Shown here: positions 15,746-21,316 of the stretch, one piece after another
How the letters are laid out: each line of letters opens with the position of its first letter
Position numbering within the stretch: the stretch's first letter is position 1
Assembly: GCA_029846755.1 (NCBI GenBank)
Contig: JARWBI010000005.1
Span: forward strand, 1 to 64,000
From: Falsirhodobacter flavus
Lineage (GTDB): Bacteria > Pseudomonadota > Alphaproteobacteria > Rhodobacterales > Rhodobacteraceae
Reading direction: 5' to 3'
DNA length: 64,000 nucleotides
The notes under the pieces: generated by a model
Seen by the model: only the letters and a program-made list of their open reading frames with translations
The model's database searches: none
What the model was told of the DNA's origin: nothing
Program-made: the position numbers and the translations under genes

Positions 15746-15774
15746 TTGCAAGGCCCCGAAATTAGTTCTAATCA
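15746..15774 (+). promoter_or_regulatory. Sigma-70-type promoter of tRNA-Thr
   Basis: TTGCAA at 15746-15751, a 17-base spacer, and TAATCA at 15769-15774 lie 32 bases upstream of the mature tRNA start. The other two tRNA genes of the window have equivalent -35/-10 pairs at matching distances. Confidence 0.6.
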
Positions 15775-15806
15775 GCCGCCACACCGCAGGAAACACCTGC
15801 ACCGGC

Positions 15807-15881
15807 GCTGCAGTAGCTCAGTGGTAGAGCACACCCTTGGTAAGGGTGAGGTCGAGAGTTCAATCCTCTCTTGCAGCACCA
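15807..15881 (+). tRNA. tRNA-Thr (anticodon GGU)
   Basis: Acceptor GCTGCAG pairs with TTGCAGC (one G-T pair). The D-arm is GCTC/GAGC, the anticodon stem CACCC/GGGTG encloses loop TTGGTAA with anticodon GGT, and the T-arm is GAGAG/CTCTC with TTCAATC. CCA is encoded at 15879-15881. The 3' 23 bases of the gene and the next five bases are duplicated at 21289-21316, so this tRNA is the integration site of the downstream island. Confidence 0.96.
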
Positions 15882-15886
15882 TCTTT
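15859..15886 (+). repeat. attL: 28-bp direct repeat at the tRNA-Thr 3' end
   Basis: This 28-base stretch, TTCAATCCTCTC through CACCATCTTT, is identical to 21289-21316. Flanking bases differ on both sides. It spans the 3' strand of the T-arm, the acceptor, CCA and five bases beyond, as expected for a tyrosine-integrase attachment core. Confidence 0.9.
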
Positions 15887-15938
15887 TCTCCTTTCGGATC
15901 AAAAAGATGCAAGCTAACAAGGGCTTGGACTGACTTCG

Positions 15939-15948
15939 GTGCTACACC
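15939..15948 (+). repeat. Decamer GTGCTACACC, copy 1
   Basis: First of two copies 13 bases apart, between attL and int. A third copy lies at 21217-21226 near attR. This is a possible arm-type integrase or excisionase site. Confidence 0.4.
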
Positions 15949-15951
15949 GGA

Positions 15952-15961
15952 GTGCTACACC
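15952..15961 (+). repeat. Decamer GTGCTACACC, copy 2
   Basis: Second left-end copy, 12 bases before the int start codon. In context GGAGTGCTACACCG it resembles the right-end copy GAAGTGCTACACCA. Confidence 0.4.
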
Positions 15962-15973
15962 GTGGTATTGCAG

Positions 15974-16708
15974 ATGGCTCGACCCTTCCCCCACCCGCGC
16001 ACCGGGGTCTTCTATTTCCGTCAGAAGGTTCCCGCCGATCTTCGGCATATACTTGGCAACAAGATCGTCTCGCGGTCCCTCCGCACAAAAGACCCAGCGA
16101 CGGCCAAGTTGCGGAACGTGGAAGAGGTGCGAAAGCAAGCCCTGATCTGGGAGCGGCACCGAAAGTCCCCCGAGCCAATCCCGCACAAGCAAATCGTGGC
16201 TCTCTCGGGGGTCGTCTATCGGGACTACATGGCGATGCTGGACCACGGCACCCTCTGCCTTCGGATCACGCCGGAAGCAGGGTCGGTGAAGACGGGTCGC
16301 TACAGGGTGGTGCCGATGCACCCGCAGCTTGTGGAGATGGGTCTGCCGGAGATGATCCGCAGCCTCCCTGATGGCCCGATCTTCTACTCGACGGCCCCCA
16401 TTCGCGGAAAGCCCGCCAATCCGGTTGAGCGCGCTCAGAGTGCTGGAGCGAAGGTCGGTCAGTGGGTGCGGAAGGTGGTCGGGATCACCGACCCGGACGT
16501 GCAGCCCAGCCATGCGTGGCGGCACAGGTTCAAGACCATAGCGCGGGAGGCCGGGATTGATGTGGAGATCCGAGACGCAATCCAAGGTCATGAAGACGGC
16601 AGGGCCGCAAGCGATTATGGAGAGGTCACGATTAGAGCCATGCGGGACGCGATCAGGCGTCTTGAGCCGATAGAGGTTGGTTCGTGGAGCCGGGAAGGGG
16701 CGACTTAA
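15974..16708 (+). pseudogene. Tyrosine recombinase (integrase) with an internal deletion
   Basis: The 244-codon frame joins two integrase ends. Residues 1-75 match the N-terminal arm region of tRNA-targeting integrases (FPHPRTGVFYFRQKVPADLR). From about residue 94 it matches the catalytic domain after its first half (LRITPEAGSVKTGRYR). Lys106, His180 and Arg183 (HAWRHR), His206 (GHEDGR) and nucleophile Tyr215 (ASDYGE) remain. The core-binding domain and the stretch bearing the first catalytic arginine are missing. Family members are about 400-450 residues. The join is in frame, so a short protein may be made, but it should be unable to recombine alone. Start ATG at 15974 is uncertain. Confidence 0.8.
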
Positions 16709-16750
16709 GCACCCCCTCTCGGTGTTCTACTACGTATGCCGGAGGGCGGA

Positions 16751-17263
16751 TTAGATCACTTCGCCCGTCTCCGGGTCGGGAGCCTTCCCCGTCACCCACT
16801 CCCAGACGCGACACCCCATGAGGCGGCGACAAAGCCTGTCAGCGACCACGGGCACCGGGGGATAGTGTCTCGACCTGCGGAAGCAGACACGCCGTCTCTC
16901 GTCTTCCTTGGGAGCGAAGAACAGCGGGTTCCCGAGGACGTGACGCATGTGCTTGTCTCCGGCCCGCGCACTTTGGAGCCAGCCATTCACCAACCCCAGC
17001 CGTTCCCCCGGAGGCGTCCCATAATAAGCCTCATTCAGCCATTGCAGCGTGGCATGGTCGCGGCGGCTGCGATGGCGCACGTCCCAGCTATCACCACGGG
17101 GACCGCAGCGGGACGTGTTGCGGGTGGTCTTCTTCTGGCACGGCGGAGTGCAGTAGCGTTGATTGCGGCGGTTCGGCGTGAAGGCGGTCGAGCAACCGGG
17201 GCAGACGTGCTGCCCGCCCCCATTGTCGCGAAGGATCAAGTTCAATGCTGTGATCCCGACCAC
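16751..17263 (-). CDS. Zinc-ribbon-like protein of unknown function (island cargo)
   Basis: A 170-residue basic protein. Near the N-terminus, HVCPGC then YCTPPCQK about 14 residues later form a CxxC-CxxxC pair, a likely zinc-binding finger of the kind seen in small phage and plasmid proteins. The remainder is rich in Arg and Trp (WLNEAYYGTPPGERLGLVNGWL) and matches nothing I recognise. The GTG start at 17263 overlaps the end of the RNase HI gene by 22 bases; a TTG overlapping the rnhA stop is an alternative. Overlap implies cotranslation with rnhA. Confidence 0.6.
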   Translation of the reverse strand: MVGITALNLILRDNGGGQHVCPGCSTAFTPNRRNQRYCTPPCQKKTTRNTSRCGPRGDSWDVRHRSRRDHATLQWLNEAYYGTPPGERLGLVNGWLQSARAGDKHMRHVLGNPLFFAPKEDERRRVCFRRSRHYPPVPVVADRLCRRLMGCRVWEWVTGKAPDPETGEVI

Positions 17264-17772
17264 AAAGCTTTTTCACCCTTTCGCGCTGCGCGGTAGGCCA
17301 GCTTGTCAGCTCGTTCGTTGTGCTCTGCTCCGTTGTGACCACGGACCCAGACAAACGCCACGTTGCGTCCATCGACCGCTGCCTCCAATCGGTCCCAGAG
17401 ATCGCGATTGGGCGGTGCCGATCCGTCGCTTTTCTTCCAACCCTTCGCCCTCCAGTTCGCCAGCCATCCGTTCATGGCGTTGGGAATGAGATTGAGGTCG
17501 CAGAAGACGGTCACAGGTTCGCCGCTCGGCACTCCTAGCTGTTCGATAGCGACACAGGCCGCCGTCATCTCCATGCGAATGTTGGTTGTGGGTTCAGCAA
17601 CGAATCCAGAGCGTTCACGCTCCTTCACGATGCCACCGTCTGCGGCGCGGCGGAGGGTCACAATGCCATAGCCGCCGGGGCCGGGGTTCCCGATGCTGGA
17701 ACCGTCTGTATAGATTTCAATGCGAGTCTGGCTGCTGTGCGGCTGGTCATCGCGGGTCGTGGTGGTCTTCAT
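17242..17772 (-). CDS. Ribonuclease HI (island copy)
   Basis: A 176-residue RNase HI that would cut RNA in RNA-DNA hybrids. Active-site residues are visible: Asp23 in YTDGSSIGNPG, Glu68 in MEMTAA, Asp92 in FCDLN and Asp146 in NERADKLA, with the loop histidine His136 in VRGHNGAEH. Start ATG at 17772 follows GGAG; an ATG four codons upstream is closer to no ribosome site. Being inside the tRNA island, it is probably accessory to a chromosomal rnhA. It leads the zinc-ribbon gene on the minus strand. Confidence 0.88.
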   Translation of the reverse strand: MKTTTTRDDQPHSSQTRIEIYTDGSSIGNPGPGGYGIVTLRRAADGGIVKERERSGFVAEPTTNIRMEMTAACVAIEQLGVPSGEPVTVFCDLNLIPNAMNGWLANWRAKGWKKSDGSAPPNRDLWDRLEAAVDGRNVAFVWVRGHNGAEHNERADKLAYRAARKGEKALWSGSQH

Positions 17773-18292
17773 GGTAAGCTCCATTGATGCTTTGATGGTG
17801 GATCAGGTCGAGGCCATCCCTCGGCACGGCACCGTCAGCGGCCCCACCACGAGCACCCGAAAGGCTGCGGAGAGACAGCCAGACGGGGTGCCAGCGGTGT
17901 CGTGCGAAGGAATGAAGGGGAAGGTCGGGGTTGCGCTGGGGGAGCGCTCGGTCGCTAAACACTAGATTTTGTGGATCGTGGTTCGGACTGCCGCGAGAGG
18001 TCCAAAGAGGGTATGTGTTCCTCCGATGGGGGGTGGTAATTGCCGATCCTCGGAGAGTTGTGGAGGGCAGCCCAGCGCCCCCGCGACTTTTCACCGTTCA
18101 GCGCCAAGCTTAAAGTGAGATGCCGCTCTACGGTGCTTCCTGTGGCCTGTGCGGGCGTCCGATCATTTGCGCTGGGTGGCACTGGTCGCTAGGTGTTGTG
18201 TGGTGCCGGATAGCAGGAAGCCCCCGAGGTGATCCCCGAGGGCCTTGAGCTGGTCCAGTGCTACGTCCTGTCCCCGTGAAGTTTGCGGGATG
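17773..18292. other. Gene-poor stretch inside the island
   Basis: About 520 bases without a supportable gene. Short open frames on both strands lack ribosome sites and recognisable composition. A near-duplicated CCCCGAGG pair lies around 18227-18241. The 5' leader of the minus-strand rnhA must lie at its left edge. Nothing else was identified. Confidence 0.5.
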
Positions 18293-18631
18293 CTAGTTCC
18301 TCATGTAGAAGATCGGCAACTCTTGCCACGTTCCGGCCATCCGCATCCGGCCTTCTTGCGCCTTGGCTTCCGCGATCCGCAGCGCCAGCGCCATCCCGTC
18401 CCCCACCTTTTCGCCCCTGACGGGTTCCCCCTTGGCGATCCTCTCGGCAGCTTCGTAGAGCGCATCTCCGGCTGTGATGAGGGCCAGCGCGGCCTCCATG
18501 CGGGCAGCGGCCTTGCGGGCCTTCTTCTTCCCGTGCGCCTCTCTGGTGGCCGTCACGGTGCCCTGTGCGGTGCCAAGGATGATCCCGGTGGCGGCGATCA
18601 GGTGGTCCGTGGTGGTGGTCGCGGTGTGCAT
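18293..18631 (-). CDS. Hypothetical protein, island cargo
   Basis: A 112-residue protein with no recognised family. The ATG at 18631 follows AGAGGGA at good spacing. The N-terminus is Thr-rich (MHTATTTTDHLIAATGIILG), followed by a basic Lys/Ala patch (HGKKKARKAAARMEAALAL) and an Ala/Glu-rich helical part ending LPIFYMRN. Overall it looks like a small helical, possibly nucleic-acid-binding or regulatory protein. It is encoded on the same strand as the recombinase, about 220 bases downstream of the 31-residue membrane ORF. Confidence 0.55.
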   Translation of the reverse strand: MHTATTTTDHLIAATGIILGTAQGTVTATREAHGKKKARKAAARMEAALALITAGDALYEAAERIAKGEPVRGEKVGDGMALALRIAEAKAQEGRMRMAGTWQELPIFYMRN

Positions 18632-18850
18632 AGCGTTCCCTCTGCGATGCGTGGTTGATGACATAGAATCGCATGGCCGATGAGGCCGCGTAAGTAGATG
18701 GTTCCGATATGAAAACTGCTTTGGCGATTAAGTCGGAGTGTGACTCATCCGCCACAGGTTGCGGGTGCGCCTCCTATGGCATGGTGCAATTGGCTCCAGT
18801 CTTGGTCCGGTGCAAAAACAGATAGTCAGACAGGGACGCGGTGCCGTGGA

Positions 18851-18946
18851 TCAGTCCGGCCCGAGGGCGTCCCATACCGCCAGAAGCCCACCTACGCCCA
18901 TCACGACCGCAACGGCGTAGTGGACGATTTCCAGCACCAGCAGCAT
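18851..18946 (-). CDS. 31-residue membrane microprotein coupled to the serine recombinase
   Basis: A short frame whose ATG overlaps the last base of the recombinase stop (TGATG at 18944-18948). It encodes one strongly hydrophobic segment: MLLVLEIVHYAVAVVMGVGG, then LLAVWDALGPD. The stop is TGA at 18851-18853. A one-base stop/start overlap plus a clean single transmembrane helix argues for a real translationally coupled peptide. No homologue is known to me. Confidence 0.5.
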   Translation of the reverse strand: MLLVLEIVHYAVAVVMGVGGLLAVWDALGPD

Positions 18947-19596
18947 CACGCAGCCTCCCCCTCGGCCCACTTCACCAGCACCGCCTCGGCCCCAGCCATG
19001 TCGTCCCGAAGGCGCTGGACGGTGGGGCGCGTCAAGCCCGTTGCCTTGGCGATCTGGGATGCTCCTGCGCCCTGTGCGAGCATGTCCCGCATGAGGTCGA
19101 GCTGGTCCCGTGTGTAGCTCGGCTTGCGGCCCCGATACTTCTGCGGGCTGGTGGCTCTGTGGTGCGCGATCCCGGCCTTCTGGGCTTCCTTCGTCGCCTC
19201 GGCCTGTGCCTGTGCCGTCGCTGCCATGAAGCCGATCAGCGCGTCCCTGACAGCCTCCTGCATGGGGTCTGTCGTGGCCCCGTCAAAGGTCATGTTGTTT
19301 ATCACGGTGCAAATGACCACGCCCTGCCGCATGAAGTGCCGGATCGTGTCCGTCACGTCCTGATAGTTCCGGCCTAGCCGATCCACCCAGCGGACGACCA
19401 GCACGTCCCCGTGCCGCAGCTTGTCGAAGAGCCGCCGACCCTCGGGACGATCCCGAAGCGGGATGCTGACGCCGGATACGCCCTCGTCCGCGATCACCTC
19501 GTCAATGGTGAAGCCCGCAGCCTCGGCCTGTTGGCGCTGGTGAGCGGTGGTCTGGTCTGCTGTGGAGACGCGGGCATAAAGGACGGTGCGGGACAT
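18946..19596 (-). CDS. Serine recombinase / resolvase-invertase family
   Basis: A 216-residue small serine recombinase. Catalytic Ser11 is in YARVSTADQ; DEGVSGVS and RWVDRLGRN complete the resolvase catalytic core (about 1-135). The C-terminal helix-turn-helix is SQIAKATGLTRPTVQRL near 185-200. Such enzymes resolve or invert DNA at short sites. The start at 19596 gives the family start MSRTVLYARVS; upstream ATGs add an unrelated tail. It is intact, unlike the tyrosine integrase, and has no transposase partner here. Its 3' end overlaps a 31-residue membrane peptide gene. Confidence 0.88.
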   Translation of the reverse strand: MSRTVLYARVSTADQTTAHQRQQAEAAGFTIDEVIADEGVSGVSIPLRDRPEGRRLFDKLRHGDVLVVRWVDRLGRNYQDVTDTIRHFMRQGVVICTVINNMTFDGATTDPMQEAVRDALIGFMAATAQAQAEATKEAQKAGIAHHRATSPQKYRGRKPSYTRDQLDLMRDMLAQGAGASQIAKATGLTRPTVQRLRDDMAGAEAVLVKWAEGEAA

Positions 19597-19948
19597 GGTA
19601 GCTCCTGCCAGAAAGGGTTGTGCCAGCATAGAGACCTGCCAACAATTCGATGCCAACCCTTATGGGCACCTCTGCGGGGACTTTCCGACCTGCCCATGTG
19701 GGCATACCCTGTGGGCATGGTGCTAGAGTATTGCGGGATAAATATGATCGTCACGCGGATGACGAAGCCTTGGCTCAGCTGTCGCAACTAATCCTATGGT
19801 GGGTGTCCTTACCGCAGCTGTAGGGTGCAGGAAATGGGGTGGCACGGGGGGCTGTGGGGAGCTAGAATAGTTTAGTTCGGCCCTTCGAATATTTTGGCCA
19901 AATTCTTGGTTGGTCGCTATAAATGCTCAGCACAGGCAAGGAGTCGAT
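19597..19948. other. Divergent intergenic region between recombinase and Mrr pair
   Basis: About 350 bases with no supportable gene. It lies between divergently read genes and should hold both promoters. The rightward promoter is listed separately. For the recombinase, only an AT patch around 19737-19750 stands out; no clear -35/-10 pair was found. An abrupt shift to A+T-rich sequence starts near 19860. Confidence 0.5.
19894..19923 (+). promoter_or_regulatory. Promoter of the membrane protein-Mrr pair
   Basis: TTGGCC at 19894-19899, an 18-base spacer, and TATAAA at 19918-19923. Transcription would start about 20 bases before the ATG at 19949, leaving a short leader that contains AAGGAG. Confidence 0.5.
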
Positions 19949-20209
19949 ATGTTTTTTTCTAAAGTTGGCCGAATAATTGCATGGGGCGCGGTCATCCTTG
20001 GTGTGATCCAACTATCGATGGGATTTATTGTCGGCTTCATGTTGGCTGGCTCTGAACATCCCGCTGCGGTGGTTGCAGCGACCCGGCGTTATCTTGGAGG
20101 AACACCCTCTGGACAGACGATAAATGAAGCCATATTTTTTATCGTGATTGGCGTGTCTATTGGTATTTTGACAGAGATTAGCAGAGCGATTTCATTGTCG
20201 AAAAAATGA
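19949..20209 (+). CDS. Small two-helix membrane protein upstream of mrr
   Basis: An 86-residue protein with ATG at 19949 after AAGGAG. Two hydrophobic segments are clear: IIAWGAVILGVIQLSMGFIV with following residues (about 7-32), and AIFFIVIGVSIGILTEI (about 62-78). They flank a polar loop (SEHPAAVVAATRRYLGGTPS). The C-terminus is basic (SLSKK). No family was recognised. It ends 16 bases before the Mrr-type gene and shares its low-GC composition, so the two look like a transferred two-gene unit. Confidence 0.7.
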   Translation: MFFSKVGRIIAWGAVILGVIQLSMGFIVGFMLAGSEHPAAVVAATRRYLGGTPSGQTINEAIFFIVIGVSIGILTEISRAISLSKK

Positions 20210-20225
20210 CCTGTGGAAAGTTTAG

Positions 20226-21188
20226 ATGTCTATTCCTGATTATGAAACGCTTATGTTGCCTGTCCTCCGTCTGTTCGCTGATGGGGTTTCAAATGTGGCA
20301 GCCTGTGTCCCCCGTTTGAAAGAGCAATTCAATATCTCTGACGAGGAAGCTGCTGAACTTATACCCAGCGGAACAACAACCATTCTACAAAGTCGCGCTC
20401 ACTGGGCTCGGACCTATCTAGCAAAGGCTGGTCTGCTTTCGTCACCAAAGAGAAACCTGCACGTCATCACTGACACTGGGCGAGCAGTTCTTGCGAGGAT
20501 GCCGACAAAAATTGACAACGCTTATTTGGCTAATTTCGACGGTTTCAATGATTGGATAGACCAATCTCGGGCAGGAAGTATTGCGACAGGCAATGATGGT
20601 GCGCTGGAGGGTGCGCCTAAAGAATCGAGACCCGACATTACGCCCATTGATGAGCGTCAGACACCAGAGGACGCCATGGAGGCAGCCTCTTCGCTTCTAA
20701 GTGCGGCCCTCAGAGATGAACTTTTAGCATTGCTCTATCAGGTAACGCCTCAGCGTTTTGAAAGGCTCATTCTCGAATTGCTCACGTCTATGGGTTACGG
20801 GGGCGGAGACGCTGCGCGTGGTATGACTACGAAAGCGACTGGTGATGGTGGCATAGACGGTATCATTCACGAGGACGCGCTGGGGTTGGATGCCGTTTAT
20901 ATACAGGCAAAACGGTATGCTGCTGACAGGAAGGTCGGTCGGCCTGATATTCAGCAATTCATAGGTTCATTGACGGGAGAGGGCGCAACAAAAGGTGTCT
21001 TCGTGACCACAGCGGACTTTTCTAGGGACGCACGCGATTTTTTACACCGCGTCCAGCAAAGGGTAGTTCTGATTAATGGCCAGAGGTTGGCGCAGCTAAT
21101 GATAGCTCACGGAGTCGGTGTTCGCGTAAGGCAGACTTACCTGATCCGATCCGTTGACGAAGACTATTTCTCTGACATCGCAACCTGA
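20226..21188 (+). CDS. Mrr-type restriction endonuclease
   Basis: A 320-residue protein with the Mrr architecture. The N-terminal winged-helix region (about 5-95) begins DYETLMLPVLRLFADG. A linker follows, then a C-terminal PD-(D/E)xK nuclease domain starting TPQRFERLILELLTSMGY. Catalytic residues are Asp211 in GDGGIDG and Gln227-Lys229 in YIQAKR. Mrr enzymes cut methylated foreign DNA and can be toxic on stress. The frame is complete, unlike the island integrase, which suggests selection for function. Codon use and composition are much more AT-rich than in host genes, a sign of transfer. Confidence 0.9.
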   Translation: MSIPDYETLMLPVLRLFADGVSNVAACVPRLKEQFNISDEEAAELIPSGTTTILQSRAHWARTYLAKAGLLSSPKRNLHVITDTGRAVLARMPTKIDNAYLANFDGFNDWIDQSRAGSIATGNDGALEGAPKESRPDITPIDERQTPEDAMEAASSLLSAALRDELLALLYQVTPQRFERLILELLTSMGYGGGDAARGMTTKATGDGGIDGIIHEDALGLDAVYIQAKRYAADRKVGRPDIQQFIGSLTGEGATKGVFVTTADFSRDARDFLHRVQQRVVLINGQRLAQLMIAHGVGVRVRQTYLIRSVDEDYFSDIAT

Positions 21189-21216
21189 TTTGCCTCGGCA
21201 CACGTGTCGCACCGAA

Positions 21217-21226
21217 GTGCTACACC
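21217..21226 (+). repeat. Decamer GTGCTACACC, copy 3 (right end)
   Basis: Same decamer and orientation as the two left-end copies, 63 bases inside attR. This is consistent with an integrase or excisionase arm site at the right end of the island. Confidence 0.4.
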
Positions 21227-21230
21227 ACCG

Positions 21231-21258
21231 TTGACAGGATGGCTAAAAAACCTATATG
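21231..21258 (+). promoter_or_regulatory. Outward promoter at the island right end
   Basis: A perfect -35 TTGACA at 21231-21236, a 16-base spacer, and TATATG at 21253-21258, directed toward attR. No gene follows in the chromosome on this strand. In an excised circle it would lie roughly 120 bases upstream of int. Confidence 0.55.
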
Positions 21259-21288
21259 AATCAAAGAGAAGTGGATTTATTCGCCGAA

Positions 21289-21316
21289 TTCAATCCTCTC
21301 TTGCAGCACCATCTTT
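21289..21316 (+). repeat. attR: 28-bp copy of the tRNA-Thr 3' end
   Basis: Identical to 15859-15886. Upstream is CGCCGAA, not a tRNA body, so this is the displaced chromosomal 3' end and marks the right boundary of the island. Confidence 0.9.

Follow-up and report, generated by a model that had tools for sequence, protein, structure and literature searches.

A tRNA-Thr island with a damaged integrase in Falsirhodobacter flavus and an apparently unnamed family of islands that share its small recombinase

The island at tRNA-Thr(GGU) and its integrase

The DNA analysed is a 64,000-nt stretch (the window) of the 4.02 Mb Falsirhodobacter flavus genome, which is assembled in 51 contigs; genes were called with a simple in-house caller. 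Its subject is an island that adjoins a tRNA-Thr gene and encodes a damaged integrase, a small serine recombinase and a restriction enzyme. ARAGORN (as tRNA-Thr(GGT)) and Rfam place the integration target, tRNA-Thr(GGU), on the forward strand at positions 15807–15881. A repeat search gave two forward-strand copies of a 28-bp repeat, attL at 15859–15886 and attR at 21289–21316. These are the only two occurrences of the 28-mer in the window; three allowed mismatches add no further one, and 100 shuffles gave none. With one mismatch allowed the repeat reaches 31 bp, starting at 15856 and 21286. The original prediction, made from the letters alone, had proposed exact att repeats bracketing about 5.4 kb and made up of the end of the tRNA plus a few following bases. 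The 23 bases inside the tRNA and five past its end agree with the ARAGORN boundaries, and the span is 5,458 bp with both repeats counted. The tRNA gene remains complete, since the element carries a repeat of its 3′ end. Searched against the whole genome at E 0.001, the tRNA matched itself, the right-hand repeat and a single further place with weak similarity. Rfam at E 0.5 reported just the tRNA and one sub-threshold match on its opposite strand.

Seven genes lie between the repeats, encoding the truncated integrase, a 170-residue protein, RNase HI, a 123-residue protein, the serine recombinase, an 86-residue protein and an Mrr-type enzyme. The predicted damaged integrase, RNase HI and Mrr were all recovered by hidden Markov model (HMM) scans. 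A recombinase had also been called; it is present, and its Resolvase and HTH_7 domains assign it to the resolvase/invertase type rather than to the integrases. The GC content is 48–52% at 19,750–21,249 as compared with 58–67% at 15,750–19,749, in line with the AT-rich right third described before. In HMM scans that included PHROG, no capsid or relaxase family was matched by the seven proteins, and no conjugation genes were recognised among them (oriT was not searched for). The sole phage-packaging matches are weak ones of the resolvase helix-turn-helix (HTH) to terminase-small-subunit profiles (phrog_309, E 0.003); these apart, the view of a compact element that lacks phage and conjugation genes held. 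The data support a tRNA-Thr island bounded by attL and attR, with a damaged integrase and no recognised transfer genes. This support is drawn from the left-flank homology that breaks off at the tRNA end in relatives, from the homologous island with the repeat in the sister species, and from the empty sites of a family member at another tRNA.

The truncated tyrosine integrase (15974–16708, forward strand, 244 residues) was delineated by HMM and by comparison with the protein of the sister species R. xinxiangensis, which carries a whole 510-residue integrase at the same tRNA site. The window protein corresponds to residues 1–90 and 362–507 of that integrase, fused in frame at about 16240–16243. 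Its HMM domains are DUF6538 and a partial Phage_integrase, the latter under the cut-off. Tyrosine integrases are characterised by a first catalytic arginine, an HxxR box and a tyrosine box; the last two are retained in the window protein and the region of the first is missing. The absence of approximately residues 91–361 therefore marks the island as a defective member of the tRNA-targeted integrative islands. Protein identity to R. xinxiangensis is 99% in the N-terminal piece and 73% in the C-terminal piece, thus the gene appears to be a hybrid made from two integrases, for which recombination between neighbouring elements could be the source. No further integrase of this kind was found in the genome at 1e-8. 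Alternatively, the shortened protein might still have a function, such as that of a regulator or an excision factor composed of the N-terminal DUF6538 part and the C-terminal part, given that the frame is kept and that the first 90 codons differ from those of R. xinxiangensis by 14 synonymous changes and one non-synonymous change. However, most of this divergence may predate the deletion, one third of deletions are in frame by chance, and the only other two-piece integrase among the 36 elements described below (L174) is split differently. We consider a working product very unlikely.

Comparison of the terminal 10-mers revealed two forward-strand copies of GTGCTACACC at 15939–15961 (15939–15948 and 15952–15961), which are putative integrase arm sites. 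Repeat comparison placed a third forward-strand copy, the putative right arm site, at 21217–21226, and nearby an inverted repeat pairs 21204–21218 with 15933–15947. A 10-mer common to both terminal stretches occurs in 27 of the 36 elements, as compared with 1.8 expected from internal stretches, and these shared 10-mers resemble arm sites for the integrase.

In 10 relatives other than R. xinxiangensis, homology to the left flank (murA, assigned by eye) ends at window positions 15881–15894, the tRNA end; in an eleventh (G014), the match is confined to the tRNA. R. xinxiangensis has the tRNA, matches the repeat at 30 of 31 positions and carries a related island whose sequence is divided between two contigs. 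Its flanks are 92–93% identical to those of the window, its resolvase and Mrr are 94% and 98% identical at the protein level, and a ParB-like gene takes the place of the genes for the 170-residue protein and RNase HI. Integrase pieces adjoin the same tRNA in two other genomes of the genus (G005 and G006, the former also with a ParB-like piece), and tRNA-Thr is thus a repeated target. A relic of a second integrase lies between attR and carB in R. xinxiangensis (L032 324–970) and is a sign of repeated insertion at tRNA-Thr. In G006, a 29-bp copy of the tRNA-Thr end (L034 6168–6196) is located 29 kb from the tRNA, which is itself adjoined by a broken integrase; this repeat appears to mark another, larger element inserted at this tRNA.

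The resolvase, its res-like site and the related elements

The serine recombinase (18946–19596, reverse strand, 216 residues; PF00239 and PF02796) has the Tn552/Sin and gamma-delta resolvases as its nearest solved chains. Upstream of the gene, about 125 bp are conserved and comprise three sites: an inverted site I of 27–28 bp, site II, which includes a −35-like TTGAC, and site III. In the window, alignment positions this res-like site on the reverse strand at 19606–19717, with site III at 19606–19625, site II at 19637–19668 (including the −35-like hexamer) and site I at 19691–19717. A script placed site I 121–141 bp upstream of the resolvase match in 78 of 81 loci; the exceptions were L133, where site II was chosen (site I is visible in the alignment), and L169 and L200, where the script failed. 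Exactly one site-I position exceeds the threshold in 32 of the 36 elements, and a single res in each element is consistent with the resolution of multimers rather than with inversion. Directional deletion between res copies is predicted for this arrangement of a three-part site beside a resolvase gene. The same Tn3/Sin-like layout occurs on two small circular plasmids of Methylobacterium nodulans, pMNOD06 and pMNOD07; together with the upstream position of site I, this makes a multimer resolvase the most likely assignment. The top PHROG match of the protein is named DNA invertase (phrog_125) and the top NCBIfam match is also an invertase, far below the cut-off, as would suit an enzyme that switches genes of the element. 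A second site I is not seen in most elements, site I was placed within the same 121–141 bp range in 78 of 81 loci, the three-part layout is shared with plasmids, and resolvases are the top solved structures; an invertase was rejected on the single site I per element and is very unlikely. The res half-sites vary by subfamily, being TGCCCA in the branch of the window and TGTCCG in most others, a difference that may reflect a switch in the specificity of the resolvase HTH.

The resolvase and eight relatives were aligned and run against GTDB genomes, yielding 245 stretches, of which the best 80 were examined. By record title, nearly all of these 80 loci are from Alphaproteobacteria; one is a metagenome-assembled genome titled Alteromonadaceae. 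A tRNA is present in the DNA examined at 53 of the 80 loci, and at 47 of these 53 the 3′ end of the nearest tRNA points toward the resolvase (binomial 2.9e-9). Repeats of 16–37 bp that start in the tRNA end delimit 36 elements (35 of the 80 loci plus the window), 3.7–18 kb in length. L153, in which the resolvase lies outside the repeat pair in a tandem-like arrangement, and L167, in which the repeat is not at the tRNA end, were excluded from this set. An integrase or pieces thereof occur in 35 of the 36 elements, including the window and the split L174; 30 adjoin the tRNA and five are at the far end. ParB-like proteins are found in 14 elements, RNase HI in nine, BRO-N in six and the NinG-like cluster in four. 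Eight of 72,556 plasmid records contain the resolvase at 1e-40. Distant matches to the primase-type gene of pMNOD07 occur in L148, L149 and L205; in L149, a short integrase also adjoins tRNA-Ser. These loci apparently represent a widespread, unnamed family of tRNA islands that share one small recombinase. In Microvirga roseola (L183 1730–14943), two resolvase-RNase HI-ParB-integrase sets stand in series at one tRNA-Leu.

The broken integrase, and the remains of another integrase on the far side of attR in R. xinxiangensis, could mean that the window island is left over from a prophage or conjugative element that was once larger and has decayed around this tRNA gene. Relatives with whole integrases keep the same compact plan at many tRNAs, however, and the window retains both ends together with the arm repeats and a res-like site. 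With 36 delimited elements at hand, we regard such a remnant as very unlikely.

An unoccupied target was found for the L177 element, which is inserted at tRNA-Leu(GAG). The 538-base join of its flanks was matched in one piece in four of 37 genomes of the genus (G416, G417, G418 and G440), with matches running from base 122–134 to base 536–538; the join is split by the element in G200 and was matched in part in the other 32 genomes. For the L146 element, no empty site was found in seven genomes of its genus, where beyond G405 there were only left-flank and weak tRNA-like matches.

Integrase and resolvase trees were calculated from 36 loci with a long integrase adjoining the tRNA, 28 of them delimited elements; the hybrid integrase of the window was left out. 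Changes of tRNA label were then counted after dropping one of an identical pair, which left 35 rows with 16 labels, and compared with 1000 shuffles. The integrase tree requires 19 changes, whereas the shuffle mean is 26.8 and no shuffle was as low. The resolvase tree requires 26 changes (shuffle mean 26.8), and 391 of 1000 shuffles were as low. Dropping L153 (its resolvase is part of the neighbouring element) gave 19 changes for the integrase (0/1000) and 26 for the resolvase (676/1000). The integrase phylogeny thus follows the tRNA and the resolvase phylogeny does not, hence integrases have been exchanged; this shows how a lineage can switch its insertion site. Since only five of 32 inner branches of the resolvase tree are starred, that tree shows a lack of association and not a dated history. 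In Roseobacter sp. MED193, two elements (L142 and L147) have resolvases that are 90% identical and integrases, at tRNA-Val and tRNA-Ser, without significant similarity.

Defence cargo and the proposed cycle

The cargo of the family was defined by leaving out the window, the integrase, resolvase, ParB-like, RNase HI and NinG-like proteins, five doubtful small-ORF (open reading frame) families and all proteins shorter than 150 residues. The resulting 125 proteins come from 34 elements (L137 yields none). As controls, 125 of 288 flanking genes were used; a few of these derive from neighbouring elements, which works against the contrast. At 1e-10 the cargo proteins matched 378 PADLOC models and the flanking proteins 26; because many models overlap, 378 is not a count of systems. 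Pfam domains among the cargo include N6_Mtase (6), DNA_methylase (6), ResIII (5), Bro-N (5), AAA_21 (4) and TIR_2 (3). Ten large cargo proteins taken singly gave Mokosh MkoA and MkoB (L163), type IIG restriction-modification (L177), Dsr2 (L191), and PbeA and PbeC (L196), with one weak match (L179) and none for L175, L206 and L211. In L201, an ATPase domain is paired with DUF4435 (below cut-off), a pairing also found in PARIS. By these matches, the family cargo is rich in defence genes, of which the Mrr of the window is therefore typical.

The window gene for the Mrr-type type IV methyl-directed restriction enzyme (20226–21188, forward strand, 320 residues) encodes Mrr_N and Mrr_cat domains and matches PADLOC mREase_IV at 3e-81; the two domains place it in the Mrr class, for which cutting of methylated DNA is predicted.

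We propose that the island is a copy, no longer mobile, of an integrative element that targets tRNA genes and whose lineage is defined by the resolvase with its own res site, and we hold this with good confidence. A tyrosine integrase would bind the arm sites near both ends and recombine attP with the tRNA 3′ end; the element would supply that 3′ end, keeping the tRNA functional. The excised DNA would be a circle, and the resolvase acting at res would reduce dimers or concatemers to monomeric circles, in the manner of small plasmids. Replication or maintenance of the circular form is the probable role of the RNase HI, ParB-like and NinG-like proteins, and the space from res to attR would house a defence gene, here mrr. 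Having lost the middle of the integrase with the first catalytic arginine region, the window copy should stay put unless a related integrase acts in trans. Sequence evidence covers the repeat, the tRNA, the integrase deletion and its intact counterpart in a relative, the conserved res-like stretch, the link to tRNAs across the family and the unoccupied sites elsewhere; the circular stage, the resolution of multimers, the defence activity and the transfer route are inferred. The sharing of the res unit with small plasmids likewise suggests a free multimeric stage. More broadly, and only tentatively, the family may be an undescribed class of elements, widespread in Alphaproteobacteria, that are at times integrated at a tRNA and at times in a plasmid- or concatemer-like state. 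A fixed resolvase-res pair would keep the free form monomeric, and swapped integrases would allow a lineage to change from one tRNA to another while it ferries defence systems, possibly as a satellite of helper phages.

Several observations weigh against this proposal. The original prediction had looked to related genomes for an empty tRNA-Thr(GGU)-carB junction, and none was found in the six other genomes of the genus (the name carB is taken over from it; the junction was sought from the tRNA and from the carB end). carB lies 30–245 kb from the tRNA in G001, G002, G003 and G006 and on another contig in G005, and the junction of the sixth, R. xinxiangensis (G004), is occupied. No tRNA was found in the DNA examined at 27 of the 80 loci (15 of the 27 with at least 20 kb), and 45 of the 80 could not be delimited by repeats. 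All 80 were picked by their resolvase, so its conservation in part reflects selection. Four elements (L134, L136, L137 and the window) fall below the site-I threshold, all with a different half-site that is TGCCCA-like as against TGTCCG; in the window this difference is the reason. The in-frame deletion and the synonymous excess leave room for retained integrase function, and an assembly error at the integrase may be involved. HMM scans recognised no replication gene in the window element; a replicating circle is therefore deduced from relatives and plasmids only.

The size range, the defence cargo and the phage-type accessory genes (the BRO-N antirepressor cluster, NinG-like proteins and RNase HI) would also suit phage satellites, which a helper would induce, copy as concatemers and package, the resolvase then monomerising the injected DNA before integration. 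PICMI satellites of Vibrionaceae, according to the portion of PMC10803314 available, provide a precedent, as their DNA is packaged in concatemeric form and includes defence genes. The resolvase has 45 related loci in IMG/VR; identity is at least 57% in 12 of them and no higher than 36% in the other 33. On the other hand, a phage origin was rejected, since none of 50,697 phage records matched the resolvase at 1e-30. Among the 125 cargo proteins, which matched 118 PHROG families, the 25 commonest families include no capsid or terminase, and no primase or AlpA was recognised in the seven window proteins. A satellite nature is accordingly judged possible but unlikely. Like the island family, PICMI are small with a minimal gene set and defence cargo, and their DNA is concatemeric, as ours would be; they carry alpA and prim and are sited at fis, and neither gene was recognised in the window. 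The same portion of that paper mentions neither resolvase nor tRNA.

Phage defense elements have reportedly been studied in Vibrio. In the text available for PMC12595487, tRNA/tmRNA islands without transfer genes are a described class, with phage defense elements as named examples. They share with the present island the tRNA target, direct repeats, a tyrosine recombinase and the lack of autonomous transfer. In contrast, the shared part here is a resolvase with a res-like site, and that text uses neither "resolvase" nor "serine recombinase". No description of a resolvase-res family of tRNA islands was found in the open-licence PMC literature, and DUF6538 with integrase gave 0 results, within the text those records provide. 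The broad class is known; as far as that literature shows, the resolvase-res unit with exchangeable integrases is undescribed.

The resolvase family, the inverted 27–28-bp site I and the additional sites II and III, all upstream of the gene, are shared with the Tn3/gamma-delta and Sin/Tn552 systems, but here they reside in integrative elements and small plasmids and not in a replicative transposon. By eye, the halves of site III look directly repeated; in Sin, the halves of site II reportedly are. Unlike the island, pMNOD06 and pMNOD07, which share its resolvase family and res layout, are circular plasmids with annotated primase-type genes and no integrase found; the pMNOD06 primase-type gene has no NCBIfam match, and the pMNOD07 resolvase reads as two frames. 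Defence genes travel on islands whose transfer is poorly understood, and one diagnostic gene, the resolvase, with its site, res, offers a handle for counting defence carriers in Alphaproteobacteria.

Remaining genes of the island

On the reverse strand at 16751–17263 lies the gene of the 170-residue protein, which has a cysteine motif (by eye) and only weak NinG/HNH-type matches; the NinG match (E 6e-4, under the cut-off) came from a relative. The cluster of the 170-residue protein occurs in four of the 36 elements, the window included. RNase HI (17242–17784, reverse strand) was assigned by the RNase_H HMM, and the genome holds one more RNase HI match. The nearest relatives of the island enzyme, in two genomes, are 61% identical and have an adjacent resolvase in both. 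An ORF-poor stretch at 17785–18263 follows, 88% identical to R. xinxiangensis with no Rfam match; it is better conserved than the neighbouring gene of the 123-residue protein (18293–18664, reverse strand; 64% identity in protein), which a gene call and HMM scan relate to no known family. The 86-residue protein (19949–20209, forward strand, by gene call) is probably a membrane protein, judged by eye. Its gene is 16 bp upstream of mrr and diverges faster than mrr, and among the best 80 loci scanned homologues were seen in R. xinxiangensis only.

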